DNA of 64,000 bases, taken from NCBI RefSeq assembly GCF_001936335.1, contig NZ_CP018888.1, forward strand, positions 558,001 to 622,000, in the 5' to 3' direction. This DNA comes from Amylolactobacillus amylophilus DSM 20533 = JCM 1125. GTDB taxonomy: Bacteria > Bacillota > Bacilli > Lactobacillales > Lactobacillaceae. Both the position numbers and the translations under genes were made by a program. The notes under the pieces were generated by a model. The model ran no database searches and was not told the origin of the DNA. It saw nothing but the letters and a program-made list of their open reading frames with translations. This document shows positions 1,196 to 62,647 of the stretch, piece by piece (position 1 is the first letter of the stretch; the number at the start of each line of letters is the position of its first letter).

Positions 1196-1417
1196 ATTTA
1201 GATTAAACGATCCGCTGATATTTAAAAGAAAGAAGGTAAAAACAAATTAGAATTACGAAAAGGAAAAAAACGATTATCAGTATATTACTGGATATTTGGT
1301 ATTAAAGGATTTACTAACCTATTGTATTGGTTGCGAGTCTATTTAGCAGAAATACGGATCTGTTCATCTAGTTTAGTGATTGAGTGTAAGCTGGTCTCCC
1401 CCTGAAGCAATAAGCAT

Positions 1418-1432
1418 TGTTACCGCTTACAT
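1418..1432. promoter_or_regulatory. Consensus cre (CcpA) site without an evident target gene
   Basis: The minus strand reads ATGTAAGCGGTAACA, which matches all 15 positions of WTGNAAGCGNWWNCA. The flanking genes kup and the small membrane gene converge on it, so it does not sit in either gene's promoter. Confidence 0.5.
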
Positions 1433-1487
1433 TATTAATATAACAGTGTTTTAACCATATGTCTAGATGTTTTTGGTGATTTTTTTG

Positions 1488-1694
1488 CTAGAAAACCACT
1501 ACATAGGTTAGGGCGAGCCACGCCAGAAGTAGTAGAACGATAAAAAATCTACTATGAGCGGTTAACCGCTGCTCATTTAACCTGCTAACTCGCGTTTTTG
1601 CTTGGTACTTTGTGCGCTTAACACTGTAGACAAGTACAGCAATCGGTACTAAATATCCGACCACCATGTAGAGGTATTCCCAAATTCGTGTCAC
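1488..1694 (-). CDS. Small two-helix membrane protein A
   Basis: Unrecognised 68-residue protein with two predicted membrane helices (about residues 6-24 and 48-66) joined by a basic loop. It is a paralogue of the protein at 1906-2115. Both share EY[LI]YM[VI][VI]G in helix 1, an arginine-rich loop and W-L-x-L-T-Y-x-V-V at the C terminus. I chose the GTG start at 1694 because it gives the same N-terminal length as the paralogue (MTRIWEYLYM against MSQTLEYIYM); a TTG two codons upstream is possible. The ribosome binding site is weak. Function is unknown; a small immunity or envelope-stress protein is conceivable but unproven. Confidence 0.6.
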   Translation of the reverse strand: MTRIWEYLYMVVGYLVPIAVLVYSVKRTKYQAKTRVSRLNEQRLTAHSRFFIVLLLLAWLALTYVVVF

Positions 1695-1746
1695 AATCAA
1701 CTACTCTGATCATCCATATTGTATCTTGAACTAGTCTATTTTAACA

Positions 1747-1786
1747 AAAAAGCCCAAAACTAGAATGAACTAATTTTGAGCTTTTA
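1747..1786. terminator. Imperfect hairpin between the small membrane genes
   Basis: AAAAAGCCCAAAACTAG pairs imperfectly with CTAATTTTGAGCTTTT around a short loop and is flanked by A and T runs. It is a likely bidirectional terminator. Confidence 0.55.
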
Positions 1787-1828
1787 GCAATTATATCACT
1801 TAACATAGTTATCGGTATTTATCTTTGA

Positions 1829-1891
1829 TTAAGCACGTCTCTTACGATCAACACCGGCTAAAGCAAGGATCCCTGAAACAATTGCTAAGCA
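1829..1891 (-). pseudogene. Possible remnant of a cell-wall-anchored protein C terminus
   Basis: The minus strand encodes, directly before a stop codon, a hydrophobic stretch followed by a basic tail (LAIVSGILALAG then DRKRRA). This is the layout of the membrane and charged part of an LPxTG sorting signal. No LPxTG and no upstream coding sequence remain; a stop codon lies just before the fragment. It lies next to another broken surface-protein gene, which fits a decayed surface locus. It is short, so chance similarity is possible. Confidence 0.35.
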
Positions 1892-1905
1892 TCAGCTAGA
1901 ATTGA

Positions 1906-2115
1906 TTATTTAATTACTACCATGTAAGTAAGCACAAGCCAGCCAATAAATAAAATAGAGCCCATTACCCATGCCTGCTGCGTAATTTTACGCTTATAAA
2001 AACGATCCACGCGCGAATCGCCAACTCGCGGCCTTCTAAGTAATGTTGCCGCAATTGCAAGAACGCCAATTACGCCACCAATAATCATGTAAATATATTC
2101 CAAAGTCTGACTCAT
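1906..2115 (-). CDS. Small two-helix membrane protein B
   Basis: Unrecognised 69-residue membrane protein, paralogous to the one at 1488-1694. Helix 1 spans about residues 5-26, a basic loop (RRPRVGDSRVDRFYKRK) follows, and helix 2 spans about residues 49-67, ending WLVLTYMVVIK. A GAGGAG ribosome binding site 6-7 bases before the ATG makes this a well-supported gene. Conservation between the copies is strongest in helix 1 and at the C-terminal WLxLTY. This argues for a conserved function rather than generic hydrophobicity. It follows the broken surface-protein gene on the same strand. No function is assigned. Confidence 0.7.
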   Translation of the reverse strand: MSQTLEYIYMIIGGVIGVLAIAATLLRRPRVGDSRVDRFYKRKITQQAWVMGSILFIGWLVLTYMVVIK

Positions 2116-2170
2116 TATTACTCCTCAAAAAAAGATAGATAGCGCAAGGCTATTTATCTTTAATTTTACC

Positions 2171-3118
2171 CTATTTACCTAACTTATTGAGGATTTTTTT
2201 TGGAGTGGGAAATTTTCCACTCATAATTGTTGCTCCGGCACCGAGACCAAGACCTAGGGTAGCAATCGCTGCAAGTGCAACGACCAATGGCACAGAACTT
2301 CTATTGGTGTTCTTGGCATGCGCTTTTTTCGCAATTTTTTGTGTATTATTAGTCCTCTGTTGCTTACGTTTGTTACTACGTGCGGGTGTTTCATTTTCAC
2401 CAAAAGCAATTATATTATGCCTTAGACGAGCGTTACTTCTCAGGGAACTTGCTTTCTTCTTGGTGGTTGCTCTATGGACACCTTGAGTTACTGCATGGGC
2501 TCTTTAGGATTACTGCTTGCCTCGTGTTCTTGTGCACTTTGAGCGTTTGAAAAAACAAACGCCTCAGCCTCATTGTTGGCAACTGGCAGAACTTGAGTAT
2601 TTTCTACAACATTTGTTGCGACAGAATTACCTGGCGTTTCAGCATCATTAGCGTGATTATCACCAGTCTCATAGTTATCCACTTGTTCTGCAACCTGATT
2701 AGGCTCTGCAACGTTTAGACCATTATCTTGATTATCATAGGACACATTGGTGTAGACTGACTCACCAACTTTAAAACCGGTAAATTCTTTGTCATTAGTT
2801 GGATCATCATCGGTATTATCATAGAACTCGTCCGTAACCGAATCACCATCGACCTTCGTGTTAATAACCTCGTGGTTGTTGCTCAGCACTATCCTTGCTA
2901 ACAGATAGCGGTTCACCAACTTGTGTGCCAGAAATATTTAGATTATTTTCAGTATCAACATCCGTGTTGTGGTACGCATTAGTCGTCGAAACAGGTTCGC
3001 CTAATGATTCCTTGTTTTCATAGTAATCTTCGGCGTCTGAACTAAACATAATCCCCGTCATACCTACAGCTAGTTCCCATAGTATTGCCTGCGTTTTAAA
3101 AGTACGCTCCATCATCAT
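2171..3118 (-). pseudogene. Frameshifted repeat-containing surface protein gene
   Basis: Three consecutive minus-strand frames together describe one acidic, Asn/Asp-rich protein of about 315 residues. Frame 1 (3118 to about 2880) has a start with an AGGGAG site and a short hydrophobic N terminus, then acidic sequence. Frame 2 (about 2900 to 2488) continues it. Frame 3 (about 2490 to 2171) adds a Lys-rich segment, a C-terminal membrane helix rich in Leu, Gly and Ala, and a short basic tail. The acidic part carries degenerate repeats of about 35-45 residues marked by VG[ED][PS][VL]. At least two frameshifts, near 2880 and 2490, break it. It was probably a surface-exposed stalk protein; no LPxTG is visible and the exact family is not recognised. 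Confidence 0.6.
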
Positions 3119-3452
3119 CTCCACTCCCTAATAACTGATATTTCCTAAATTTCACATACAACATAGCACGATAAATTCTGTTTTTAGTTTTATAACTAGA
3201 AATCTTTCAGTCACCATAATTGGTCCATACCTGTTTGCCGAACGTCTGCTATTAGAGCGTTTAAGATGCCACTATTGTTACCCGTTTCCAAATGTCTAGG
3301 CCAGAATCCTTATATGGACTATACTTTTCATTTCATAACGCAGGTTGAGTTGACAAGATTGAATAACAAACGTTTTAGTCTAACTTCTAATCGATTTGGG
3401 GCACACAAAAAAACGAAGCTGCAGCTTCGTTTTCCATCTATCATCTTTACTT
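3119..3452. other. Gene-free stretch upstream of the broken surface gene
   Basis: About 330 bases holding the 5' flank of the broken surface gene and, at its right end, the pepO terminator. No further gene, RNA or repeat is supported. Confidence 0.5.
3409..3433. terminator. Terminator of pepO
   Basis: Self-complementary AAAACGAAGCTGCAGCTTCGTTTT 20 bases after the minus-strand pepO stop, with a T-rich flank. Confidence 0.8.
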
Positions 3453-5405
3453 TTACCAAATATTAACGCGCTTCTCAGGTTCTAGATACATGCCATCTTC
3501 TGGCTGAACGTCGAATGCCTCATAGAATTCAGCGAAGTTTTGTGGTTGCACATTGGCCCGCATTGGACCTGGAGCGTGCACATCGACCGCCAGCAACATA
3601 TTAATATACTCTGGTGAAGCCTTCATTGCCCAGACGCGAGCCCAATTCTCAAAGAGCTCTTTCATATTAGCATCAGCCTCCGACTTAGCCGCCTCGATAG
3701 CGTTGGACAATCCACCGACATCAGCAACGTTCTCCGAGACAACCAACTTACCATTAATCTTGCCCCCGCCGTATTCGATACCGTCAAAAAGATCAATCTC
3801 TGCCTGAGTTCTTGTTTTGAACTGCTTAAAGTCCTCGTCCGTCCACCAGTTCACCATGTTTCCGAATTCATCGAATTGTGCACCGTTGTTATCGAATGCG
3901 TGTGAAATTTCGTGGGCAATTACTGCACCAATTCCACCATAATTTGTTGAGCTTGAAGCCTGCAGATCATAGAATGGTGCCTGCAGAATTGCTGCTGGGA
4001 AGGTCAAGTCGTTCTTCGATGGGTCATAACCGGCATTGACCAAATTACCAGGCATGTTCCAGGTTGTCCGATCAACATCTTGATCCAACTTCTCTAGGTT
4101 ATACTTAATCTGTTCCAGACGAGCAGCATGAAGGTTCTCGTACAACGAACCGCCCTTGCTAGTAGGCTTAATCTGGTAACGTGAATAAATCTCTTCGATT
4201 TTGTCAGGGTAACCAACCTTCAGCACCATTGCCTGCAACTTAACCTTGGCCTTATCCTTCGTTGCCTGAGAAAGCCAATCATTGTTCGATAGGCGTTGTT
4301 CATAGATGCTAATCATCTTGTGAATCATCGAGATTACATCGGCCTTAGCATCATCACCAAGATATTTCTTACCGTAATAGATTCCGACCACTTCATCGAA
4401 AAGTCCGTTAGCAGTCTGATAAGCATTCTTCTCAGGATCAGCTAGTTCCTTCACACCAAACATTGCTTGTCTGTATGGGAAACCAGCATCCCGGAATTCC
4501 TGACTCAACGAATTCGTCACGCCATTAATAAACTTCACAAACATCCATCCCTTGATTTCAGCGAAGTTTGCTTCATTGACAAGTGATTCAGCGTTCTCAA
4601 GGAAACGAGGATCAGCTTCAATCACCCGCTCCGGTACCTTACCAACAATCTGCTGTACGAAACCAGTCACATCAAAGCTCTTGAAGTATTTAGCAAAGTC
4701 GTCAAAGTCGTATGGATTGTAACTTGCAGGATAGTCAGCCCACTCCTCATTACTCTTAACAATCTTCGCAACCTTAGCATCGAATTTCAGGGCAGCACTG
4801 ACATACTGAGCGGCTTCTTCAGCGCTAAGACCGGCCAATTGCAACAGATTTTCACTCTGTGACTCAAAGACCTTGAGTAACTTATCTCCAGCTTCAGTAC
4901 CGTACTGGGTCGTATCTTGGAGGAAGATGCTTGGTCCACTCGTTGCGAGAACATGGTGCTTCGTATCCTTCATATCGGTATCAACACCAAAATCTACAGG
5001 TACAGCGAAACCGTTCAATGAGAAATCAGCAGCCTTCTTGTTGAAATCAGCAAAATCCTTTAAATCCGCTAATTTTTGTAGTGCTCCCTGAATTGGTTTT
5101 GCACCGTCAGCATTTCTCTGCTCGAAATCTAGTGCTTGACGGTACAATTCGACCGCATTCTGAAACTCGGTGCCGGCAGGCGTCTCTTTCTCGCCACTGG
5201 CGAAAGCGGCAAATTCAGCCATCAAGGCCTTTTCCACATTTTCTGCCAAGACATTGAAGCTTCCTGTTGCCGGCTTGTCAGCAGGAATTTCAGCATTCTT
5301 TAAGTATTCTGCATTTACAGCAAGATACAAGTTATCTTGTGGGCGTGCATTCTCTGGTACGGTTACATCACCAGCACCGCCACGAACTGTCATAAATTTA
5401 GACAT
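3453..5405 (-). CDS. pepO: M13-family zinc endopeptidase (PepO, neprilysin-like)
   Basis: Cytoplasmic oligopeptidase of 650 residues that cuts peptides brought in by oligopeptide transport, part of the lactobacillus peptide-utilisation set. The M13 signature is intact: HEISH (HExxH, two zinc ligands plus the catalytic Glu), followed about 60 residues later by ENVADVGG (ExxxD, third zinc ligand). The protein ends in the typical ...VNIW, and its length is normal for PepO (about 630-650). There is no signal peptide or membrane anchor. I chose the ATG at 5405 because AAGGTGG lies 8 bases upstream; a start at 5417 would overlap that site. It is monocistronic with its own terminator. Confidence 0.95.
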   Translation of the reverse strand: MSKFMTVRGGAGDVTVPENARPQDNLYLAVNAEYLKNAEIPADKPATGSFNVLAENVEKALMAEFAAFASGEKETPAGTEFQNAVELYRQALDFEQRNADGAKPIQGALQKLADLKDFADFNKKAADFSLNGFAVPVDFGVDTDMKDTKHHVLATSGPSIFLQDTTQYGTEAGDKLLKVFESQSENLLQLAGLSAEEAAQYVSAALKFDAKVAKIVKSNEEWADYPASYNPYDFDDFAKYFKSFDVTGFVQQIVGKVPERVIEADPRFLENAESLVNEANFAEIKGWMFVKFINGVTNSLSQEFRDAGFPYRQAMFGVKELADPEKNAYQTANGLFDEVVGIYYGKKYLGDDAKADVISMIHKMISIYEQRLSNNDWLSQATKDKAKVKLQAMVLKVGYPDKIEEIYSRYQIKPTSKGGSLYENLHAARLEQIKYNLEKLDQDVDRTTWNMPGNLVNAGYDPSKNDLTFPAAILQAPFYDLQASSSTNYGGIGAVIAHEISHAFDNNGAQFDEFGNMVNWWTDEDFKQFKTRTQAEIDLFDGIEYGGGKINGKLVVSENVADVGGLSNAIEAAKSEADANMKELFENWARVWAMKASPEYINMLLAVDVHAPGPMRANVQPQNFAEFYEAFDVQPEDGMYLEPEKRVNIW

Positions 5406-9578: not shown

Positions 9579-11189
9579 TTAAACTAAATCCTTTCTACGA
9601 TAACCGATAATGCTAACAAAAATCAAGCTAAAAGCAATCACGCAAAGCGTGGTAATCGCGGCTAAATCGAGACTCTTCACCGGAATATCCTGCAACCAGC
9701 CAAATGGTGTCAACTTCTGAATGTTACCATCTAATTTCAGCAAACCACCAAAATAAATTGAGCCAAAGCCAAAGACGAGGTAGAGCCAATTCAGCATGTA
9801 TAACTTGGGCAGATAAACCGTGAAGACCAGGGCCAGACCAATGAAGATGCCAATTGCCGGCAGATATGCGAGGTACATCTCCCAGTATTGGCTGAATTCA
9901 ATGGGCTTCTCCAGTACCGAATTACCAGCAAAGTAGAGTCCAAGTACACCAGCAAAAAAGACGATTGCCGCTCCAAGCAAAGAAACGGTGAGGTAACTTG
10001 TCACGAACTTAACGCGTGAAACCGCCTTTGATTCGAGTAATTCGAGCATTCCTTTGGTCTGCTCTGTCTGCAATTTATGGATGATGTTACTGCCGAAAAT
10101 TACGGCCATCACAGCAAAAACCACAGCTAACAACGCCACGAACTGTAGCGCCACTTTCTGTGAGAGCGCGTTTTGCTGATTGGCACCAATCAATTGTGCG
10201 AGCGTTTTGTTATTTTTTACCAAATCGTCAAATGAACCAAAAATTGATCCGTAGGTTGCACCGAAGACTAAGGCAGCAACGCTCCACCAGAGCAGTCCCG
10301 CTCGCTCAAGCCGTACGCGCAGAGAATAGAGGCCGCGGAGGGCTGAGCCCGCGCGACTATTACCCGGTCTCTGAGCTAACAGTCCCACACCGACATCACG
10401 GTTTCGTGAGACCAGAAAAATTGCGCAGCCTAATAAGAAACTTGCCGTCAAGAAGTAGACCAACGGAAAGTAATCATCATAAATATACGGCTGTGTCTGT
10501 CCCAGCCAGCTGAAAGGGCTGAGCCAATCTAGCCCCAGGTCCGAGACATTGTTCATCATCGTCAGAACATAGAAGACACCAATCGCCCCGAAACTAGCTG
10601 CGCTAACAGTGCGGGTATTCTCAAAGATTTGAGCTAAGAAGATCGCCAGGAGACCAAATAGTAGCCCCACGGCTCCTTGAACTAGCCCCAGTAAGAATGC
10701 CCCTTTAAGCGAGCCACCGTAAATGCCAGAGTTTCCCACCAACAAGCCGATACCAAGTGCATAGACACCGTTCAGGAGCACCAGCTCCCCAATTGCTGCC
10801 AGGTTCACGCTACCACGACCAACTGGACGAGAACGGAGCAGCTCAACCACGCCATCCTCTTCAGCTCCTCGTGTATTTTTAACCACAATGAGCACACTCA
10901 TAATTGCCGCAATAATTGACATGAAGAGATTCATCTCCGCTGCAAAAACCATGGCTGTAGTCAACGTTTGAACGTGGGGCATCTTACCAAGCAAGGCAAC
11001 CATAGATGGCGTATTCAAAGTCTCAGCCATGGATGTAAGCTCGGCCTTGGTACCATAGAGAGTATTCATGTATGGACCTGTATAGGCGAATAAGCCCAGT
11101 AACATGACCAACCATAATGTAAGTTTCAGCCAATCCTTGCGAAGGTTCAAGAGTAACAACCGCCACGTTCGTGCGAAATTATTTGTCAT
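9579..11189 (-). CDS. ABC exporter permease, twelve-helix ABC-2 type
   Basis: 536-residue integral membrane protein with two similar halves of about six helices each. The N-terminal half includes the RNTRGAEEDGVVELLRSRPVGR region, and the C-terminal half QTEQTKGMLELLESKAVSR. The repeated ELL(R/E)S-x-(P/A)V-(G/S)R motif in both halves shows the internal duplication. This organisation resembles the permeases annotated as exporters of polyketide-type antibiotics. It pairs with the ATPase gene 11 bases upstream. The likely role is drug or toxic-compound efflux; the substrate cannot be read from sequence. Confidence 0.85.
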   Translation of the reverse strand: MTNNFARTWRLLLLNLRKDWLKLTLWLVMLLGLFAYTGPYMNTLYGTKAELTSMAETLNTPSMVALLGKMPHVQTLTTAMVFAAEMNLFMSIIAAIMSVLIVVKNTRGAEEDGVVELLRSRPVGRGSVNLAAIGELVLLNGVYALGIGLLVGNSGIYGGSLKGAFLLGLVQGAVGLLFGLLAIFLAQIFENTRTVSAASFGAIGVFYVLTMMNNVSDLGLDWLSPFSWLGQTQPYIYDDYFPLVYFLTASFLLGCAIFLVSRNRDVGVGLLAQRPGNSRAGSALRGLYSLRVRLERAGLLWWSVAALVFGATYGSIFGSFDDLVKNNKTLAQLIGANQQNALSQKVALQFVALLAVVFAVMAVIFGSNIIHKLQTEQTKGMLELLESKAVSRVKFVTSYLTVSLLGAAIVFFAGVLGLYFAGNSVLEKPIEFSQYWEMYLAYLPAIGIFIGLALVFTVYLPKLYMLNWLYLVFGFGSIYFGGLLKLDGNIQKLTPFGWLQDIPVKSLDLAAITTLCVIAFSLIFVSIIGYRRKDLV

Positions 11190-13696: not shown

Positions 13697-15238
13697 ATGG
13701 AAAATAAAATTAATACTGACTATTTTTTCGATGAAGCTGCATTCAATACCCACGATGGCGGTTATGTACCACTTGAGGTCTATGATGCACCAGAAGTTCC
13801 GCTTGCAATCCCGCCCCTCTTAGAGCCCGATCAAGAGACCGCGACGGATGCATACTACACAGTTGAGGCCCAGGCCGGAGAAACGCAAATTCTCCCTGGT
13901 GCGAAAACTAAGACATGGGGCTATAATGCCAGCTTACTGGGCAAAACCATTGTCTATCATGTCGGCAAACACAATCACGTGACACTAAAGAATAGCCTAC
14001 CAGAGCTAACAACCTTCCACTGGCACGGTTTAGGCGTTTCCGGACCATACATAGATGGTGGCTGCCACGCTCCCGTCTATCCTGGCGAAGAAAGCAAAAT
14101 CGAATTTACATTACATCAACCAGCTGCGACTACCTGGTTACATGCACATCCCTGCCCATCGACAGCGGAACAGGTTTGGCATGGACTAGCAACGATGGTC
14201 ATTGTAAAGGATGAACACGAGGAAAGCTTACCACTGCCACGGAATTACGGCGTGGACGATATTCCTCTAGTTTTGCAAGACCGGCGCTTCCATGAGAACA
14301 ACCAGTGGGATTACCGCGAAGACTACGATCCAGATGGTGTTCAGGGACCAACAGCTCTAATCAACGGAACTGTCAATCCGTATTTCGACGTAACGACCCA
14401 GAAGCTACGGCTACGAATCTTGGACGGTGCTAACAGACGTGAGTGGCGGCTCCACTTCTCAGACAACCTCGAATTTACGCAGATTGCCGGAGACAGCAGT
14501 CTTTTGCCAGAGCCGGTTAAATTCACAAAGTTGATGCTGACGTGCGCAGAGCGGGCTGAAATAATCGTTGACTTCAAGGACTACAAGGAAGGGGACGTGG
14601 TCACATTATTCAGTGATGATGTGCCAATCGTTCGTTTTAGAATCCACGATTTCACGCCAGACAACACAGTTGTACCTGACAAATTAATTGACTTACCAAA
14701 GGAAGAGGCCGATCCTGACCTACCAGTGCGTGCAATTCTAATGAGTGGCATGGATGAAGAAGTGATGCTCAATGGCAAGAAATTCAACATGCAGCGCATT
14801 GACGCCACACAGCCGGTTGGCAAAGCGCAGTACTGGGATATTACGAATAGTAACGATATGGTTGGCGGCATGGTGCATCCCTTCCACGTGCATGGCACGG
14901 AATTCCTCGTAATCTCAAGAAATGGCCACGAACCTTACGCAAACGAGCACGGCTACAAGGATACCGTCGGGGTGAATCCCGGTGAGACGGTTCGGATTCT
15001 CGTCAGATTTGCGCAAACCGGTGTCTACATGTACCACTGCCACATCATTGAACACGAGGATGGTGGTATGATGGCGCAGATTCAATCATACGATCCAGCA
15101 GAGAAGGAACTAAAGAAGTACAAGCTGATGGATATGGATACTCTGATGAACGCTTTCGCAGAGGAACGGGGCATTAAGACTGAGGAGCTCTGGATGGCTG
15201 GCATGGAGAGCTACGAGAAGATGGGAATGGAAATGTAA
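13697..15238 (+). CDS. Multicopper oxidase (laccase/CueO-like), cytoplasmic
   Basis: 513-residue three-domain multicopper oxidase that couples one-electron oxidation of four substrate equivalents to reduction of O2 to water. All four copper signatures are present: HWHG (about 108-111), HAH (149-151), HPFHVHG (about 397) and HCHIIEHEDGGMM (about 451). The last provides T1 and T2/T3 ligands. There is no Sec or Tat signal, so it should act inside the cell, like the laccase-type oxidases described in lactobacilli and pediococci. The C terminus is Met-rich (WMAGMESYEKMGMEM), perhaps for copper binding. AAAGGAGG precedes the ATG. It neighbours a metal/redox block, suggesting copper or phenolic/amine detoxification. 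Confidence 0.93.
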   Translation: MENKINTDYFFDEAAFNTHDGGYVPLEVYDAPEVPLAIPPLLEPDQETATDAYYTVEAQAGETQILPGAKTKTWGYNASLLGKTIVYHVGKHNHVTLKNSLPELTTFHWHGLGVSGPYIDGGCHAPVYPGEESKIEFTLHQPAATTWLHAHPCPSTAEQVWHGLATMVIVKDEHEESLPLPRNYGVDDIPLVLQDRRFHENNQWDYREDYDPDGVQGPTALINGTVNPYFDVTTQKLRLRILDGANRREWRLHFSDNLEFTQIAGDSSLLPEPVKFTKLMLTCAERAEIIVDFKDYKEGDVVTLFSDDVPIVRFRIHDFTPDNTVVPDKLIDLPKEEADPDLPVRAILMSGMDEEVMLNGKKFNMQRIDATQPVGKAQYWDITNSNDMVGGMVHPFHVHGTEFLVISRNGHEPYANEHGYKDTVGVNPGETVRILVRFAQTGVYMYHCHIIEHEDGGMMAQIQSYDPAEKELKKYKLMDMDTLMNAFAEERGIKTEELWMAGMESYEKMGMEM

Positions 15239-15246
15239 CAAATAAA

Positions 15247-15678
15247 GTTGTGACACCCCACGCTTAGTTTCTGAGCACTAACGAACTTGGCTAGCAATCA
15301 CAAAGTGATTGGTAAGACAAGAAGTTAGGCGGAGGAAGTTGTGGGGTGGAACACGTTTAACAAGTTGTGACACCCCACGCTTAGTTTCTGAGCACTAACG
15401 AACTTGGCTAGCAATCACAAAGTGATTGGTAAGACAAGAAGTTAGGCGGAGGAAGTTGTGGGGTGGAACACGTTTAACAAGTTGTGACACCCCACGCTTA
15501 GCTTCTGAGCACTAACGAACTTGGCTAGCCATCACAAAGTGATTGGTAAGACAAGAAGTTAGGCGGAGGAAGTTGTGGGGTGGAACACGTTTAACAAGTT
15601 GTGACACCCCACGCTTAGTTTCTGAGCACTAACGAACTTGGCTAGCAATCACAGAGTGATTGGTAAGACAAGAAGTTG
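15247..15678. repeat. Tandem array of 117-bp repeats (three full, one partial)
   Basis: Direct repeats start at 15247, 15364, 15481 and 15598, exactly 117 bases apart; the fourth copy ends near 15678. Copies differ at only a few positions (for example TTAGTTTC/TTAGCTTC, CACAAAG/CACAGAG). Each unit has complementary ends (CACCCCAC and GTGGGGTG) and a central hairpin AATCAC-AAA-GTGATT. No coding potential is evident. The units are reverse-orientation relatives of the repeats at 34409-34590 and 43537-43750. Confidence 0.93.
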
Positions 15679-15707
15679 TGCCACCCAATTATGCAGTTAA
15701 ATACTAC

Positions 15708-15740
15708 AAAACCCACAAGCCAAATTTGCTTGTGGGTTTT
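15708..15740. terminator. Strong bidirectional terminator
   Basis: 13-bp perfect stem AAAACCCACAAGC / GCTTGTGGGTTTT with a 7-base loop, next to the 3' end of the Crp/Fnr gene. Confidence 0.92.
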
Positions 15741-15750
15741 CTGTTCTGTT

Positions 15751-33819: not shown

Positions 33820-34410
33820 ATGACTACTAAAAAAAACGAATTAAGTTCAACTAAAGCACTAGTGCGCTGCTCCTGGGGTGCGACTAACGAACCATTAATG
33901 CAGGAATACCACGACCAAATTTGGGGTAAGTTCACCACCAACGATACTGAATTATTCGAGTATCTTACTTTAGAAATATTTCAGGCCGGTCTCAGTTGGT
34001 CAACTATTATTAATAAGCAAGCTGCATTCAAAACCGCTTTTGCCGGCTATGACTTAAGTCAGATTGCCGCTTTCTCAGATAAAGAGGTAGCGCGATTGTT
34101 AAATAATCCGGCAATTATTCGTAATCGCCTCAAGATTAACGCAACCATCAATAATGCAAGAATCGTGCAAGTTCTACAGCAAGAATATGGCTCCTTCAAC
34201 GCCTATCTCCTATCCGTTTGGCCCGAGATTGTCGACAACCAACCAACAACCGACGAAGAGGTTCCCGCCATATCTGAAGCGGCGATTGCGTTAACCAAGC
34301 AACTAAAAAAAGCCGGTCTGAAATTTATCGGACCGACCATTACCTATTCATTTTTAGAAGCAACCGGAAGAATTAACGATCACCTCGTTAGTTGCTCGTT
34401 CAAGTACTAA
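33820..34410 (+). CDS. tag: DNA-3-methyladenine glycosylase I
   Basis: 196-residue base-excision repair enzyme removing 3-methyladenine. The zinc-binding set of Tag is complete: Cys17 (RCSWG), His31 (EYHDQIWG) and the C-terminal His and Cys in NDHLVSCSFKY. The core LTLEIFQAGLSWSTIINKQ contains the conserved aromatic and acidic residues of the active site. Weak AGAAGA upstream. It stands alone, divergent from the CDF gene, and is followed by an intergenic repeat cluster. Confidence 0.93.
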   Translation: MTTKKNELSSTKALVRCSWGATNEPLMQEYHDQIWGKFTTNDTELFEYLTLEIFQAGLSWSTIINKQAAFKTAFAGYDLSQIAAFSDKEVARLLNNPAIIRNRLKINATINNARIVQVLQQEYGSFNAYLLSVWPEIVDNQPTTDEEVPAISEAAIALTKQLKKAGLKFIGPTITYSFLEATGRINDHLVSCSFKY

Positions 34411-34590
34411 CCACTCGCACAAGCACTCTTCTCTAGTGCTCAGAAGCTAACCGTTCGCACAAGCACTCTTCTCTAAATGTGCTTCGCCTTGCAACACTCT
34501 CCGCACAACTTATCACCATTCAAGTCACTCTGTGACTTTCTGGTAATCTTGTTGTTGCTCGGTGTAACCCGCAAGTCATTGCACTCTTCT
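34409..34590. repeat. Intergenic repeat cluster, relative of the 117-bp family
   Basis: A 21-base motif (from 34415 to 34435) recurs at 34455-34475, with a shorter third copy near 34576-34593. Between them, from 34491, lies a unit with CTCCGCACAACTT, the hairpin AAGTCAC-TCT-GTGACTT and a GTTGCTCGG end. TAGTGCTCAGAAGCTAA at 34434 is nearly identical to the reverse complement of the 15.2 kb repeats. It fills the gap between tag and the phosphonate-type operon. Confidence 0.8.
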
Positions 34591-35403
34591 CTATATTAGT
34601 CTCTTTCTAATCGTCCCTGAGACATAGTCCACCAATGTGACCATTACAATAATACCCAACAAGATGATACCGACCCGACTCCAGCTTCTTGTCTGCAAAG
34701 CAAAGATGAGCGGTGTACCAATACCACCAGCACCAACAATACCAAGAATTGAAGCCGACCGAATGGCCAATTCAAATCTATAAAGTGTGTTTGAGACCAG
34801 TTCCGGTAATAACTGTGGCATTGTAGCGAACATAATGACGTTAAACTTCGAACCCCCCGTTGCTACAACGGATTCGTTTGGCCCATCCTCTAAGTTCTCT
34901 ATTGCCTCACCGAAAAGCTTCGCAAGCATCCCCACAGAGTGGGTACCAACGGCAAGTACACCCGCAAATGCTCCAGGACCTACCGCCTTCGTAAACATTA
35001 ACGCCAGTACGATTTCTGGGAAAGTCCGCACAAATGACAGGAAGAACTTACCCGAGCCAGAAACAAGCCAGTTAATCCTACTGTTCTTATTTCTCGCCGC
35101 CCAAAAGGCGAATGGCAAACTAATGATCGCCGAGATAAATGTCCCAAGAAAAGCAATTGCCACCGTTAGTAGCAGCGTAGTAATCAAGTCTTCACCATCA
35201 CCGCGCCAGACGTAGCCCCAATCGGGATGAATCAAGCCCTCGAATATTGCTTGACTAACTTTAACAGCATTATCCTTAATCCCGTCAAAGGGGATGTCGG
35301 TAAATGACCAAATTAACAGAGCAGCGAGGACCACGATAACGGCCCAGTTTCTAATCTTACGGATTTTTGCTTTAGGTGGTTGTGGTAATAATTTCATTTC
35401 CAT
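34591..35403 (-). CDS. phnE: Phosphonate-type ABC transporter permease 2
   Basis: 270-residue membrane permease of the PhnE family, six predicted helices. The EAA-like coupling loop is in AIENLEDGPNESVVATGGSKFNVIMFATMPQLLPE, followed by GIVGAGGIGTPLIFALQT. Its ATG overlaps the stop of the first permease (TAATG), so the two are translationally coupled and probably form a heterodimeric channel. It is the last gene of the operon. Confidence 0.9.
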   Translation of the reverse strand: MEMKLLPQPPKAKIRKIRNWAVIVVLAALLIWSFTDIPFDGIKDNAVKVSQAIFEGLIHPDWGYVWRGDGEDLITTLLLTVAIAFLGTFISAIISLPFAFWAARNKNSRINWLVSGSGKFFLSFVRTFPEIVLALMFTKAVGPGAFAGVLAVGTHSVGMLAKLFGEAIENLEDGPNESVVATGGSKFNVIMFATMPQLLPELVSNTLYRFELAIRSASILGIVGAGGIGTPLIFALQTRSWSRVGIILLGIIVMVTLVDYVSGTIRKRLI

Positions 35404-43054: not shown

Positions 43055-43462
43055 ATGACAGAATTAGTATTGATTAGTCACGGAAACTTATGTGTTGAAT
43101 TAAAGAAGAGTGCGGAGATGATTATGGGTCCACAAGAACATATTCACGCTGTTCCTCTCCTACCAGCCGAGGGTCAGGAAGATTTCCTCAAGAAGTTTGA
43201 TGACTTAGTACAAGATTTTGATGACTACGTGGTCTTCTCAGACTTACTTGGTGGAACACCTGCCAATACAATCTCGAAACAGATCATGCTCGGTCGTGAC
43301 ATTCAATTGTACGCTGGCATGAATCTTCCAATGGTAATCGAATTCGTTAACAGTACATTAGTTGGTAACGAACCTGACTACATCGCAACAACTAAGGATA
43401 GTATCGTCAAGATCAATGATCTGCTGGCTGCTCAAGCTGACGATGATGACGAAGACGAGTAA
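43055..43462 (+). CDS. PTS mannose/fructose/sorbose-family IIA component
   Basis: 135-residue cytoplasmic phosphocarrier receiving phosphate from HPr on His9 (LVLISHGNL). SDLLGGTPAN is the family motif; the C-terminal tail is acidic (DDDDEDE). Last gene of the operon; the IIA is a separate protein rather than fused to IIB. Confidence 0.92.
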   Translation: MTELVLISHGNLCVELKKSAEMIMGPQEHIHAVPLLPAEGQEDFLKKFDDLVQDFDDYVVFSDLLGGTPANTISKQIMLGRDIQLYAGMNLPMVIEFVNSTLVGNEPDYIATTKDSIVKINDLLAAQADDDDEDE

Positions 43463-43516: not shown

Positions 43517-43536
43517 TTGTGGTAACCTTCATGAAT

Positions 43537-43750
43537 GCAACACCCTGCACGCAACTTGTTACCATTCAAATCTATTCGACTTTCTGGCAACTTCTTTGCT
43601 GTTCGGGCGTTACCCGCAAAGTAATGCATTCTTTTTAAACGTGCTCTTCCTTGCAACACCCTCCGCACAACTTATCACCATTCAAGTCACCCAGTGACTT
43701 TCTGGTAATCTAGTTGTTGCTCAGGTGTAACCCGCCAGGAATCGCACTCT
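43537..43750. repeat. Two tandem 116-bp repeat units
   Basis: Units begin at 43537 and 43653 (GCAACACCC), 116 bases apart. The second is close to the 34.5 kb unit (CTCCGCACAACTTATCACC, hairpin AAGTCAC-CCA-GTGACTT, GTAACCCGC end). The first is more diverged and its hairpin is degraded. Linker TTTAAACGTG also occurs, reversed, in the 15.2 kb array. Confidence 0.85.
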
Positions 43751-58441: not shown

Positions 58442-61400
58442 CTATTCTGTTCTTTCGTCTTTCTTAAACATAAATGCTAACGCAACTCCAATTCCGATGA
58501 AGACTAATCCAATGATTGAAACCATTGGAGAGTTTGTTTCTCCTGTAAGAGGTAAATTGTCTTCTTCACTGTCTGTAGCTGCGTCTTCTTTAGTTGAATC
58601 ATCTGTGTCCGATCCGTCTGCTTCTTCTCCGCCAACTCCTGGTGTATCAGTTCCTGTACCAAGGCTTTCTGATCCAATATCAGCAACAATTGCTTCTAGC
58701 GCTGCAATTCGAGCGAGTAAGTCTGCAATTTCGGCATCCGTTACGGAGTCTAATCCACGTAATCGTTCATATTCTGCACGGATTACGTTCAACTCTTCAA
58801 CGAGTGCCGGGTTGTTTGTGGTGATTTCATCAATTGCTGTTTCTAAATCTTCTAAGCGATTTGCAATTTTATCTAAGCGCTCGTCGCCTGGTGTTTCAGG
58901 CTCAACTGGCTCTTCTGGATCAACTGGTTCTTCTGGATCAATTGGCTCTTCTGGATCAACTGGTTCTTCAACCGTGTCACCTGCAACTAAGATAACTGTA
59001 CCGCCATCCGCGTTCCCAGGGATGTCGATCGTTACTGTACCATCTGCTGCGACTACGTAAGTTACGTCATTATATACATCAATAACTTCTGAACCAGCCG
59101 CTAATCCTAGTGCAAACGTTGATTCTACTGCATCTTCATTCGTGTTTAACCCAACAAATATTTGTTCATTACCGTACGTACGAGCAAACACTGAGTAGCC
59201 TGTTTCGTTTGTTCCAGCTACATGTTGACGTGTTCCTTTTGAGAAGACATCTGAGTAGGCGGCACGAATATTTAATAGTTTCTTGTAGTGCATTAACATG
59301 TCGTTCTCGTCGTTTGCAATACTCCAGTCAAGGTTGTAACGGTTAGCATATTCATAAATGCCATTATCTTCGTCTGCTTTTAGACCTGACTGCCCAAGTT
59401 CTTCACCGTAGTAAATAACAGGTTGTCCTTTAGCGGTCATTTGCAAGGCAGCAGCAACTTTGAATAGTCCTTCGTTGCCGGCAGCACGCGTAACTAAGAA
59501 TCCGTCCTCGTCATGACTACTTAAAAATTGTCCCATCATCGCTGTGTTATCGATCAGACCGTTTCTAGTAGCTAACTCTGCTTCAATCTCATCAATATTT
59601 CCGTTGATGAACCGCTCTGCTTGCCCTTTAAAGTTAAAGTCTAGTAGAGAGTCCATACGACCTGAACGTAGCTGGTCTCCAGTGTTATTCACACTTGCGC
59701 CATACCATTCACCAATCATCTTGAAGTCTGGTTTGATTTTTGTTAATTCATTTTTGAATGCATTCCAAGTTGTGTTATCCACATGTTTAACCGTATCAAC
59801 TCGGAAGTAATCAATTGTATTGTCCTTGTCTGTTGTAAACTCTTGTAACTTCGTAATCCAATCAATTTGCCATTGAATCACTTGTTCGCGAACCGCTGGA
59901 TCTTCTGTTCTGAAATCAGGTAATCCTGATGATTCACCAATAATATCGTCTCCAGCAACTGGATTATCACGAATCATACCGTCAAATTGTTCCGCATCAT
60001 TCATGCCATATCCCGCATGGTTCAACACCACATCAACCATAATCTTCATGCCACGTTCGTGTGCTGAGTCAACTAAATTTTTCAGTGTTTCAACATCACC
60101 TAAGTGTTCGTCAATCTTTGTGAAATCTTTTGCCCAGTAACCATGGTATCCGTAGCGTTTGTCGCCATTCGCCATGTCCATACCTTCATCAATATTATCG
60201 ACAATTGGTGTAATCCAGATTGTGTTAATACCTAATTCATCTAGATAATCCAAGTTGTTAATAATACCTTGGAAGTCTCCTCCGTGGTAGCTTTCAGAAA
60301 GTTCTGAAGTCATACCATCTGGATTGTCGCCATCACTAAATCGGTCTGTCAGCATAAAGTAAATTCGTGCTTCATCCCAGTCAAAGTCTGCATCGTCTGT
60401 GATTTGACGCGGTTGTACTTCAACATCTACAGACGTGTTGTGTTTGTTTCCAAACTCATCAACCAATACGATGTCTAATGTTTTCACACCTGGAGTTATT
60501 GATTGATCAACCGCAATAGTGTGTTCCATTAATTCCGTATCGATTGCCACTTGTGCTGGTCCGCCTACTGGTGTTAAGTCGATGTAAGCTGCTCTTAACT
60601 CATAGTCATCTGATACTTCTGAAGCAATCGTTACCACTGCATTTTCATTGTATGAAATAGCTTTTCGATTGATCGATGTTTCAGCTGTAACAGTCGGCTG
60701 CGCAAATAATAATGTTGAGTGACCATCTTCGTTTGTGTTGTATGGATCTACAACTTCTTCCGTCTTTCCATCAACTGTTACGAGGAACGTATAGTCATAA
60801 TCCCCTGGTTCAATATTATCAATCGTATAGTACCAGTACTCGTTTACTTCGTCATATTCCATATCGTAAACATCTGCGTTGTCATTTGCAGTGATTTTCA
60901 ATTGTACGTTTTCAATTTTATCCATGTCACTTGTTAAGAATAATTCTGGATCACGGTAAAAGAACGTAGCGTTCCCATCTTCTAAAACTGGACCATCGAT
61001 AGATGGAACGGCAAAATATTCACCTTTTCCTTCTTCGATTGTTACTTTTGAAATCATTTCCCCTAAAGGAATGTCAATATAACGGTCTTCATTAAATGGA
61101 TCTTCTTCTACCCAGTCACCTTTACGAATCTTAAATCCTATTTTAGTCGTAGAATAACCAACTGGGATTCTTACAACGGCACCTTTGTCTGTAATTTCAT
61201 CGAAGAGAATCTCGTTATCTTTAACGCCTGTTCCCCACACCCATAAATTCCAGTCTTCGTAGTCATTATTCTTACGAACATACGTTAACTCGATGTAGCG
61301 TTGATCTAATAATTCAACATCATCTAGTGAGTAGTAAACTTCTGGGTTTCCACCGACAATCCAAACCTCAACAGACTTTTCACCTTCTGGAATCGTAATC

Positions 61401-62569
61401 ACTCGATCTGCTTCTTGAGAGTCCCAGTTTCCTAAACGAGTAATTAAATTCAATTTATCTGAAGCAAAGCTCACAGTTGATTGTACATAACCACCTGTTG
61501 ATTCTTCGCCAAATGCATAAGCACTTCCGTCGACATCTGCCGTCCACAACCATAAGCCCCAATCCGCTTGTTGCCCATCTGGACGCATGTAGTTGATGGT
61601 ATATTCGTACATTTCATCTGCGACAAAGATTGTGTGCGTTGCTTTATCTCCATCAAAAGTAGCATCAATTATAATTTCAGTTGCTGGTGAAATATCTTCC
61701 GAAATCGTTACCTTGTTGCCAGCGATTGTAACACCAGCGATTTCAGTTGCTAATGCAAAGTCTGCATCTACTACTTCTTTTTCGCCTTCGTCATTCACAT
61801 AAGTGGCTGTTAATGTAACAGTAGCACCTGGTTCAACGTCCTTATCTCCTTCGATAATTAAACCTGGAAGGATTAATTGGTTATTTCCATCGTTACCAGC
61901 GATTATATCGTTAGCTGGATCGTTTATCCAGTTATCACCATTCACAACGAATTTATATTCATAAACACCTGGTGTTACGTCAACCGTAACTGACCAAACA
62001 TCGTCCTCGCCTTTTTCCATTGAGAAGGCAGTTGCTTCCCAACCGTTAAAGCTTCCAGCAACATTGACAGTCTCTGTTGTTTCGTCACCTTCATAGCTAA
62101 ATGTCACGGTGCCATCTTCATTAATTACTGGTGATTCACCGTAGTCCGTTTCTTCTTCAGTTGGTTCCTCTGTTTCATTGTCTTCTGTGTCTGTACCTTC
62201 TTCTGGTACTACAGGTTCGTCTTCAGAATTTTCTGTATCTGAATCTGCTGCCGGCGTTTGGGATATCGCCACGTCGGTTTTCGTCGGCTGGTCAGCAGCT
62301 GGGTCGATGCTTGGCACCTGGTCCGTTTCGGCAACGGTTCCCGATTGTTCCGCGTTGGTTGTACCAGTTGTCGTTGTCGTTGCCGGTTTCGCAACCGATT
62401 GCACGGCCGTCGTGGTTGTTTGAGTATTTGACGGCGTATCCGCTTGCACTGTCGTGGTCGACAACCCCATACCGATTCCCATGGCTAAGATCGCACTTGA
62501 CGCATACAGCCACTGTTTCCCGTGTTTCCACATCCGCCAATTTTCCTGAACAACATCCTGATTATGCAT
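58442..62569 (-). CDS. Cell-wall-anchored GH13 pullulanase/neopullulanase-like enzyme
   Basis: 1375-residue secreted enzyme. N terminus: KxYKxGKxW-like signal (ENWRMWKHGKQWLYASSAILA). Then an acidic Thr/Glu linker; a CBM48-like domain (VNVAGSFNGWEATAFSMEK); an Ig-like domain; two CBM41-like starch-binding domains (ADWGLWLWTADVDG and EDWNLWVWGTGVKD); an early-set domain; and the GH13 barrel. Barrel regions: DVVLNH, DYFRVDTVKH (nucleophile), GEWYG (acid/base), SSHDEDG. Next a C-terminal beta domain, a PEEPVD repeat linker, a coiled coil (ANRLEDLETAIDEI) and an LPLTG sorting signal with helix and KKDERTE tail. It should degrade pullulan or alpha-glucans at the wall. ATG at 62569 (AGGGGG upstream). 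Base use changes sharply near 62265. Confidence 0.9.
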   Translation of the reverse strand: MHNQDVVQENWRMWKHGKQWLYASSAILAMGIGMGLSTTTVQADTPSNTQTTTTAVQSVAKPATTTTTGTTNAEQSGTVAETDQVPSIDPAADQPTKTDVAISQTPAADSDTENSEDEPVVPEEGTDTEDNETEEPTEEETDYGESPVINEDGTVTFSYEGDETTETVNVAGSFNGWEATAFSMEKGEDDVWSVTVDVTPGVYEYKFVVNGDNWINDPANDIIAGNDGNNQLILPGLIIEGDKDVEPGATVTLTATYVNDEGEKEVVDADFALATEIAGVTIAGNKVTISEDISPATEIIIDATFDGDKATHTIFVADEMYEYTINYMRPDGQQADWGLWLWTADVDGSAYAFGEESTGGYVQSTVSFASDKLNLITRLGNWDSQEADRVITIPEGEKSVEVWIVGGNPEVYYSLDDVELLDQRYIELTYVRKNNDYEDWNLWVWGTGVKDNEILFDEITDKGAVVRIPVGYSTTKIGFKIRKGDWVEEDPFNEDRYIDIPLGEMISKVTIEEGKGEYFAVPSIDGPVLEDGNATFFYRDPELFLTSDMDKIENVQLKITANDNADVYDMEYDEVNEYWYYTIDNIEPGDYDYTFLVTVDGKTEEVVDPYNTNEDGHSTLLFAQPTVTAETSINRKAISYNENAVVTIASEVSDDYELRAAYIDLTPVGGPAQVAIDTELMEHTIAVDQSITPGVKTLDIVLVDEFGNKHNTSVDVEVQPRQITDDADFDWDEARIYFMLTDRFSDGDNPDGMTSELSESYHGGDFQGIINNLDYLDELGINTIWITPIVDNIDEGMDMANGDKRYGYHGYWAKDFTKIDEHLGDVETLKNLVDSAHERGMKIMVDVVLNHAGYGMNDAEQFDGMIRDNPVAGDDIIGESSGLPDFRTEDPAVREQVIQWQIDWITKLQEFTTDKDNTIDYFRVDTVKHVDNTTWNAFKNELTKIKPDFKMIGEWYGASVNNTGDQLRSGRMDSLLDFNFKGQAERFINGNIDEIEAELATRNGLIDNTAMMGQFLSSHDEDGFLVTRAAGNEGLFKVAAALQMTAKGQPVIYYGEELGQSGLKADEDNGIYEYANRYNLDWSIANDENDMLMHYKKLLNIRAAYSDVFSKGTRQHVAGTNETGYSVFARTYGNEQIFVGLNTNEDAVESTFALGLAAGSEVIDVYNDVTYVVAADGTVTIDIPGNADGGTVILVAGDTVEEPVDPEEPIDPEEPVDPEEPVEPETPGDERLDKIANRLEDLETAIDEITTNNPALVEELNVIRAEYERLRGLDSVTDAEIADLLARIAALEAIVADIGSESLGTGTDTPGVGGEEADGSDTDDSTKEDAATDSEEDNLPLTGETNSPMVSIIGLVFIGIGVALAFMFKKDERTE

Positions 62570-62647
62570 ATTCTGCAACCCCCTAATAATATTCTGTTCA
62601 CCCTTGAATCTAAACCTAGACCCATTGATGCTCATACCACTATGCTA

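Follow-up and report, generated by a model that had tools for sequence, protein, structure and literature searches.

The ERIC repeats of enterobacteria are imperfect palindromes of about 127 bp in transcribed intergenic positions, and we know of no transposase for them. The attC sites of integrons carry paired core sites, RYYYAAC and GTTRRRY, at the ends of a hairpin and are accompanied by an integron integrase. According to the parts of the source available here, GTAG/CGTC REPs are 20-40 bp palindromes that bear an unpaired tag, GTAG or CGTC, and whose ends often provide the TAG stop codon of flanking ORFs; Firmicutes are absent from the phyla that it lists for GTAG REPs (PMC3733652). MRSC-65-2 is presented in the available sections of Narunsky and others 2024 as a single long stem with strong covariation and dozens of copies per genome, and was judged to be selfish; inconsistent orientation relative to genes is given there as a criterion for mobile or repeat candidates (PMC11109978). 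Efa-1 of Enterococcus faecalis is, in the available passages of Petrillo and others 2008, an intergenic element of 163 bp with 65 copies and two predicted adjacent stem-loops (PMC2267715). In the open-access literature, as covered by listings and passages, we found no description of the repeat family reported here; subscription papers lie mostly outside that scope.

The window analysed comprises 64,000 nucleotides (positions 558001-622000) of the single-contig, 1.61-Mb genome of Amylolactobacillus amylophilus DSM 20533. A multicopper oxidase gene (13697-15238, plus strand; taken from the ORF list, with Pfam domains Cu-oxidase_2 and Cu-oxidase_3) ends 5 nt ahead of a tandem repeat, which TRF places at 15245-15677 with a period of 117, 3.7 copies and 98% matches, confirming what an earlier note on this DNA had described. 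R1, a covariance model built from nine units, resolves the array into hairpin units at 15244-15359 (E 1.5e-28), 15361-15476 (E 2.3e-29), 15478-15593 (E 1.4e-28) and 15595-15709 (E 5.3e-13), all on the plus strand, which is the sense strand of the element here; TRF likewise detects the first. The fourth copy is present but decayed past about 15677, and BLAST aligns 82 of its 117 nt. A terminator-like hairpin, read by eye at 15708-15741 (plus strand), follows the array between convergent genes. The relatives at 34.4 and 43.5 kb, described earlier as lying in opposite orientation, were recovered by repeat search and BLAST, and the covariance model matches all units. At 34.4 kb the repeat is present, but the supposed cluster consists of one whole unit (34474-34588, minus strand; R1 E 1.7e-21), 2 nt past the stop codon of the gene at 34591-35403 (minus strand; Pfam BPD_transp_1), and two truncated 5' pieces at 34407-34473 (minus strand), recognised from the D11 repeat and by eye. 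The 43.5-kb pair consists of a unit at 43636-43746 (minus strand; R1 E 2.5e-23), antisense behind the gene at 43055-43462, and a degenerate neighbour at 43536-43618 (minus strand; partial R1 match, E 1.5e-6). The statement that all copies follow stop codons thus applies in the sense orientation at 15.2 and 34.4 kb, but not to the 43.5-kb pair, which is antisense and lies 73 nt behind the preceding gene. Elsewhere in the window, an 18-bp tandem repeat of 3.8 copies (58888-58970) lies inside a 1397-aa ORF (58442-62635, minus strand).

Over its length of about 115-121 nt, bounded by AGAG...GTTTA, every unit folds into a single long and imperfect hairpin. The sense-strand consensus reads AGA-GTGY-GA-(8-bp stem)-GGTTAG-(4-bp stem)-YGAGYA-(5-bp stem, often CTAAC)-(apical 35-52 nt)-(often GTTAG)-RCGGAR-(4 bp)-YT-(8 bp)-GA-RCAC-GTTTA. 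From the outside in, the hairpin is composed of a 4-bp stem GTGY/RCAC, a frequent tandem GA/GA mismatch, an 8-bp stem of variable sequence (123 distinct versions among 147 units), an internal loop GGTTAG/YT, a 4-bp stem, a second internal loop YGAGYA/RCGGAR, a 5-bp stem and a variable apical hairpin. CTAAC/GTTAG sits inside the hairpin and away from the ends, where the attC sites of integrons have their core sites. Arrays may mix unlike units: at 916 kb two types alternate, and at 501 kb three are present. Since the periods of 115, 116 and 117 nt do not hold frame, a coding repeat was rejected. One unit, at L127 1811-2027, reaches 217 nt, its apical part being about 100 nt longer than usual, possibly through a nested insertion.

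Rfam yields no match for the elements in the window and in loci L012 and L013 (searched to E 5), nor for those at 20 further loci (gathering score). The trpB motif (RF04312) barely exceeds its gathering score at L152 462-579 and L243 5105-5222, and in L152 it precedes an ORF that reads as trpB; this motif has no relation to the hairpin units. A group II intron match (RF00029), the sole one in the 20 loci scanned, lies at L237 1-76, about 250 nt from a unit of Paucilactobacillus nenjiangensis. Both were rejected as the identity of the element, because they are located elsewhere in the loci, off the units. L012 also contains a T-box leader match (9928-10100; 60.2 bits, gathering score 93) before an ORF reading as tryptophanyl-tRNA synthetase and, to judge by eye, an apparently single glycosidase gene (1387-4099) in pieces on either side of a transposase ORF (2379-3650).

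The fold is borne out by covariation. In the alignment of nine units, built from sequence alone, 24 of 28 pairs have changed on both sides; such cells number 72, whereas shuffling gives 22.0 on average and reached this value in none of 500 runs, and the signal is lost when the structure is slid along the alignment. All 28 pairs have changed on both sides in the alignment of 107 units, which come from many genera (1047 cells versus 298 shuffled), counts that call for caution, as this alignment was fitted to the covariance model; further pair types show no excess on that measure (95 versus 101 shuffled). An extra covarying pair is found within the second internal loop (C-G 61, T-A 43, of 122). 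The compensatory change in the hairpin arm, on which the earlier note had based its proposal of selection on the structure itself, is present as one among many, and the proposal is strongly supported by both alignments.

The composition of the pairs indicates which strand folds. On the sense strand, GU occurs 62 times and AC 31 times in 2499 cells, a ratio of 1.3-3.2 by bootstrap over 104 source loci. The parser rewarded Watson-Crick pairs alone and so did not favour wobble; out of 227 units, 78 were left out as near-duplicates, for containing N, or for falling outside 108-127 nt, and 2 of the other 149 parsed poorly, leaving 147. The two positions between the outer and the 8-bp stem read GA/GA in 69 of these 147, both Watson-Crick in 29 and mixed or other in 49, while TC/TC is never seen. 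Of these two tandem mismatches, GA/GA is stable but TC/TC is not. The excess of GU over AC and of GA/GA over TC/TC identifies the folding strand as that of the preceding gene's transcript. This evidence fits RNA and single-stranded DNA of the same strand alike. GU is less frequent in the units (2.5%) than in the stems of 20 tRNAs from the same loci (5.9%). Our first reading had been a DNA-only structure, because wobble seemed absent in the nine units and AC exceeded GT on the model strand in model-fitted alignments; the sense-strand recount without wobble bonus reversed that order.

The position relative to genes is similarly asymmetric. In Lactobacillaceae, 84 of 129 clusters start between -14 and +15 nt from a stop codon in sense orientation, compared with 3 in the mirror image and with 80 stop-adjacent cases among 2805 random positions in the same loci. 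These clusters were strand-separated under a distance limit, L057-L059 were left out of the Lactobacillaceae counts, and any open frame of 80 codons or more was accepted as an ORF, with no start codon required; under mixed-strand clustering, a gene points into the sense start of 98 out of 127 clusters. Away from stop codons are 45 of the 129, including the window's 43.5-kb pair. In the window's own genome, 15 of 19 examined clusters are stop-adjacent in sense and 1 is a mirror image; for other families the values are 19 of 32 and 1 (18 of 31 when the array represented by both L333 and L359 is counted once). At some loci the stop codon lies within the unit (gaps -3 to -10), as described for GTAG REPs in the available part of PMC3733652. 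A role of TAA/TAG as a mere target triplet was rejected: the stops beside elements (TAA 61, TAG 34, TGA 7) show no clear difference from the background (131, 52, 25; p 0.17). Sixteen genes in front of units were extracted from the window's genome, and the ten scanned for domains have unrelated functions, namely a multicopper oxidase, an ABC permease, Asp23, a pyridine nucleotide-disulphide oxidoreductase, an S1 protein, a GFO/IDH/MocA oxidoreductase, an ABC ATPase, a PTS EIIC, a uracil-5 RNA methyltransferase and a phosphoketolase. Of 157 clusters, 53 have a terminator-like hairpin no more than 150 nt away on the sense side and 13 on the opposite side, while shuffled stretches give 39 of 785; the U-run of those detected downstream lies at a median of 66 nt from the element's end.

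A young, near-uniform subfamily in Liquorilactobacillus, separated from the others by a motif of our choice, departs from this pattern: only 5 of 42 clusters are stop-adjacent, with 0 mirror images, although within 60 nt of a stop codon there are 11 sense and 0 mirror-image cases. Insertion therefore need not target stop codons. Where older, diverged copies sit tightly at stop codons, either selection or a different mode of insertion in other lineages may be responsible; we infer the former.

Genome-wide, R1 finds 42 places at E up to 1, including 37 with E below 1e-9, and R2, a model from 107 units, finds 43 matches at E up to 0.1; those at 252340, 1146542, 1344190 and 1348154 were obtained with R2 only. 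In this covariance-model search, which the earlier note had proposed, further copies appear in number, as does further covariation above, clearly the opposite of what would have spoken against a family. The first sample contained 175 units in 127 clusters, 93 of them single and the largest of five. Of 60 relatives, 17 have R1 matches, patchily distributed, and 14 of these belong to Lactobacillaceae. Over an even draw of Lactobacillales, R2 detects the family in 57 of 295 genomes, 28 of 75 genera and six families (E up to 1e-6); 12 candidates were scored per genome, so that these copy counts are lower bounds, and a rescan of 26 order-draw genomes outside Lactobacillaceae gave up to 57 copies. 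Carriers of the strict pattern among the matches listed are Periweissella, Liquorilactobacillus, Lacticaseibacillus, Secundilactobacillus, Ligilactobacillus, Paucilactobacillus, Loigolactobacillus and Trichococcus, the last a member of Carnobacteriaceae (NCBI taxonomy); R1 confirmed units in all 29 loci examined of the 80 strict-pattern loci listed, with 51 matches. One unit (L235 7373-7498, R1 E 1.4e-5) comes from a record that bears the name Sedimentibacter sp. SX930, a genus not in Lactobacillales, and could reflect a transfer or a mislabelled contig. Neither one strict pattern in viral_contigs nor one BLAST query in phages revealed a viral or phage carrier.

Copy numbers swing widely within a single genus: 14 Liquorilactobacillus genomes have 146, 78, 66, 36, 35, 33, 21, 14, 14, 5, 3, 1, 0 and 0 copies (E up to 1e-6), the first figure being a lower bound because it comes close to the maximum of 150 candidates scored. 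The repeated module in this genus measures about 175 nt and consists of a unit plus a terminator-like hairpin. Between species it is mostly 82-94% identical, compared with about 67-77% for flanking genes, and predicted mobilizable plasmids of L. hordei and L. nagelii carry it as well. The length of Efa-1 would fit a unit plus terminator; compared by the available description only, Efa-1 could be an unrecognised relative, and part of the family may therefore already have a name. Genomes G065 and G066, about 94-95% identical, can be compared at three sites, of which two differ in whether a unit is present and one is shared. In G068, an array of five units (L299 6231-6836) lies between the 3' end of a gene and a terminator-like hairpin, a junction at which none of eight relatives has a unit. 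The boundaries of the compared sites show no clear target-site duplication; one occupied/empty pair has a duplication-like 8-9 nt beside the unit, a case confounded by old terminator arms. MITEs are also marked by target-site duplications of fixed length and by terminal repeats in common with a parent insertion sequence. The units are non-autonomous and dispersed, with insertion/deletion differences between close genomes, as is characteristic of MITEs; together with the copy numbers, this agrees with the REP/MITE-like dispersal suggested earlier. The window's genome contains no REP-associated transposase of the kind that was to be looked for: the Y1 domain (PF01797) is lacking there, as it is in 9 of 14 Lactobacillaceae carrier genomes, and a Y1/RAYT transposase was rejected as the mover on these grounds. 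A reverse transcriptase was rejected likewise, since its domain occurs neither in the window's genome nor in the one richest in copies.

With REPs, as far as the available part of their description extends, the units share being short, dispersed, palindromic and downstream of coding regions, and the stop-near position corresponds to that of REPs lying within 15 nt of stop codons. They differ in measuring 115-121 nt, in having two conserved internal loops and in lacking the GTAG/CGTC-tagged palindrome of 20-40 bp; the absence of a Y1/RAYT gene from the window's genome sets them apart from the REP/RAYT system. ERIC, likened by description only, belongs to another phylum, and contact with stop codons and tandem arrays are features of the units here. 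MRSC-65-2 resembles them in its long single stem, covariation and copy numbers; going by the available description, it is distinguished by its repeat UYCCGG, which is not the consensus here, and by the criterion of inconsistent orientation, since orientation here is consistent.

On balance, we think it probable that the units are non-autonomous mobile hairpin DNA of Lactobacillales families, which many hosts have retained as a structured 3'UTR and which acts in a REP-like manner without being a REP. The fold with its covariation, the strand preference, position and orientation, spread, and the insertion/deletion differences are the observed part of this explanation. Given one orientation and stop adjacency, the hairpin would open the 3'UTR: in most lineages examined, the sense, stop-adjacent unit would be transcribed as its first structure, and roughly one case in three has a detectable terminator further on. 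RNA would then be the retained functional form, and by analogy with stop-near REPs the unit may slow the ribosome at termination and hinder 3'-5' decay of the mRNA. In our view, the most likely reason why sense stop-adjacent copies persist is that their hairpin, once transcribed, is of use at this position or does the least harm. Against this explanation count the young Liquorilactobacillus subfamily, the 45 of 129 clusters away from stop codons, a GU frequency below that of tRNA stems, strand evidence that suits single-stranded DNA equally well, and the searches for Y1 and reverse-transcriptase domains, which revealed no mover. Of the roles in RNA stability or termination considered in the earlier note, orientation and strand favour an RNA role behind genes, as judged from sequence, but the unit itself is not an intrinsic terminator, because its GTTTA end lacks a long U-run of its own and the detected terminators sit downstream of it. 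That the family ends transcription of the gene in front is thus most improbable; the stable fold behind genes and the terminator-like hairpin within the Liquorilactobacillus module would suit such a function, whereas the conserved internal loops that break the stem would not.

Purely selfish mobile DNA is possible, though rather unlikely: the fold would matter as single-stranded DNA or a cruciform for a putative transposase or recombinase, and the stop position would mark where insertions land or are tolerated. Such an origin would be in line with the large copy-number swings within one genus, the insertion/deletion differences between genomes, a covariation that is nearly Watson-Crick-only and the young amplified subfamily, most of which is not stop-adjacent. 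Tolerance alone does not, however, explain the 84 sense against 3 mirror placements, and the excess of GU over AC on the sense strand and a window genome with neither Y1 nor reverse-transcriptase domain also argue against it. More doubtful is that the element acts at the RNA level, its hairpin being recognised or inserted via the mRNA at the translation stop, for instance at the terminating ribosome or by insertion through RNA. Insertion of this kind would explain the single orientation, the contact with the stop codon and the head-to-tail arrays of unlike units, as each arrayed unit would restore the landing place for the next. We regard it as improbable that the unit is bound by one regulatory protein or serves a defined regulon as a cis-regulatory RNA; the conserved internal loops resemble recognition sites, but the ten checked genes in front are functionally unrelated and copy numbers range from 0 to at least 146 within one genus.

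The Lactobacillales repeat described here is elaborate in structure, has a fixed orientation at stop codons and lacks an Rfam match at the loci tested. If the retained mobile hairpin proves to be the correct explanation, the family would provide a system independent of the proteobacterial REPs for studying how mobile DNA joins the tails of mRNAs. It would allow one to ask what moves a repeat in the absence of a Y1 transposase, and whether a structure directly behind the stop codon tunes translation termination and mRNA decay.
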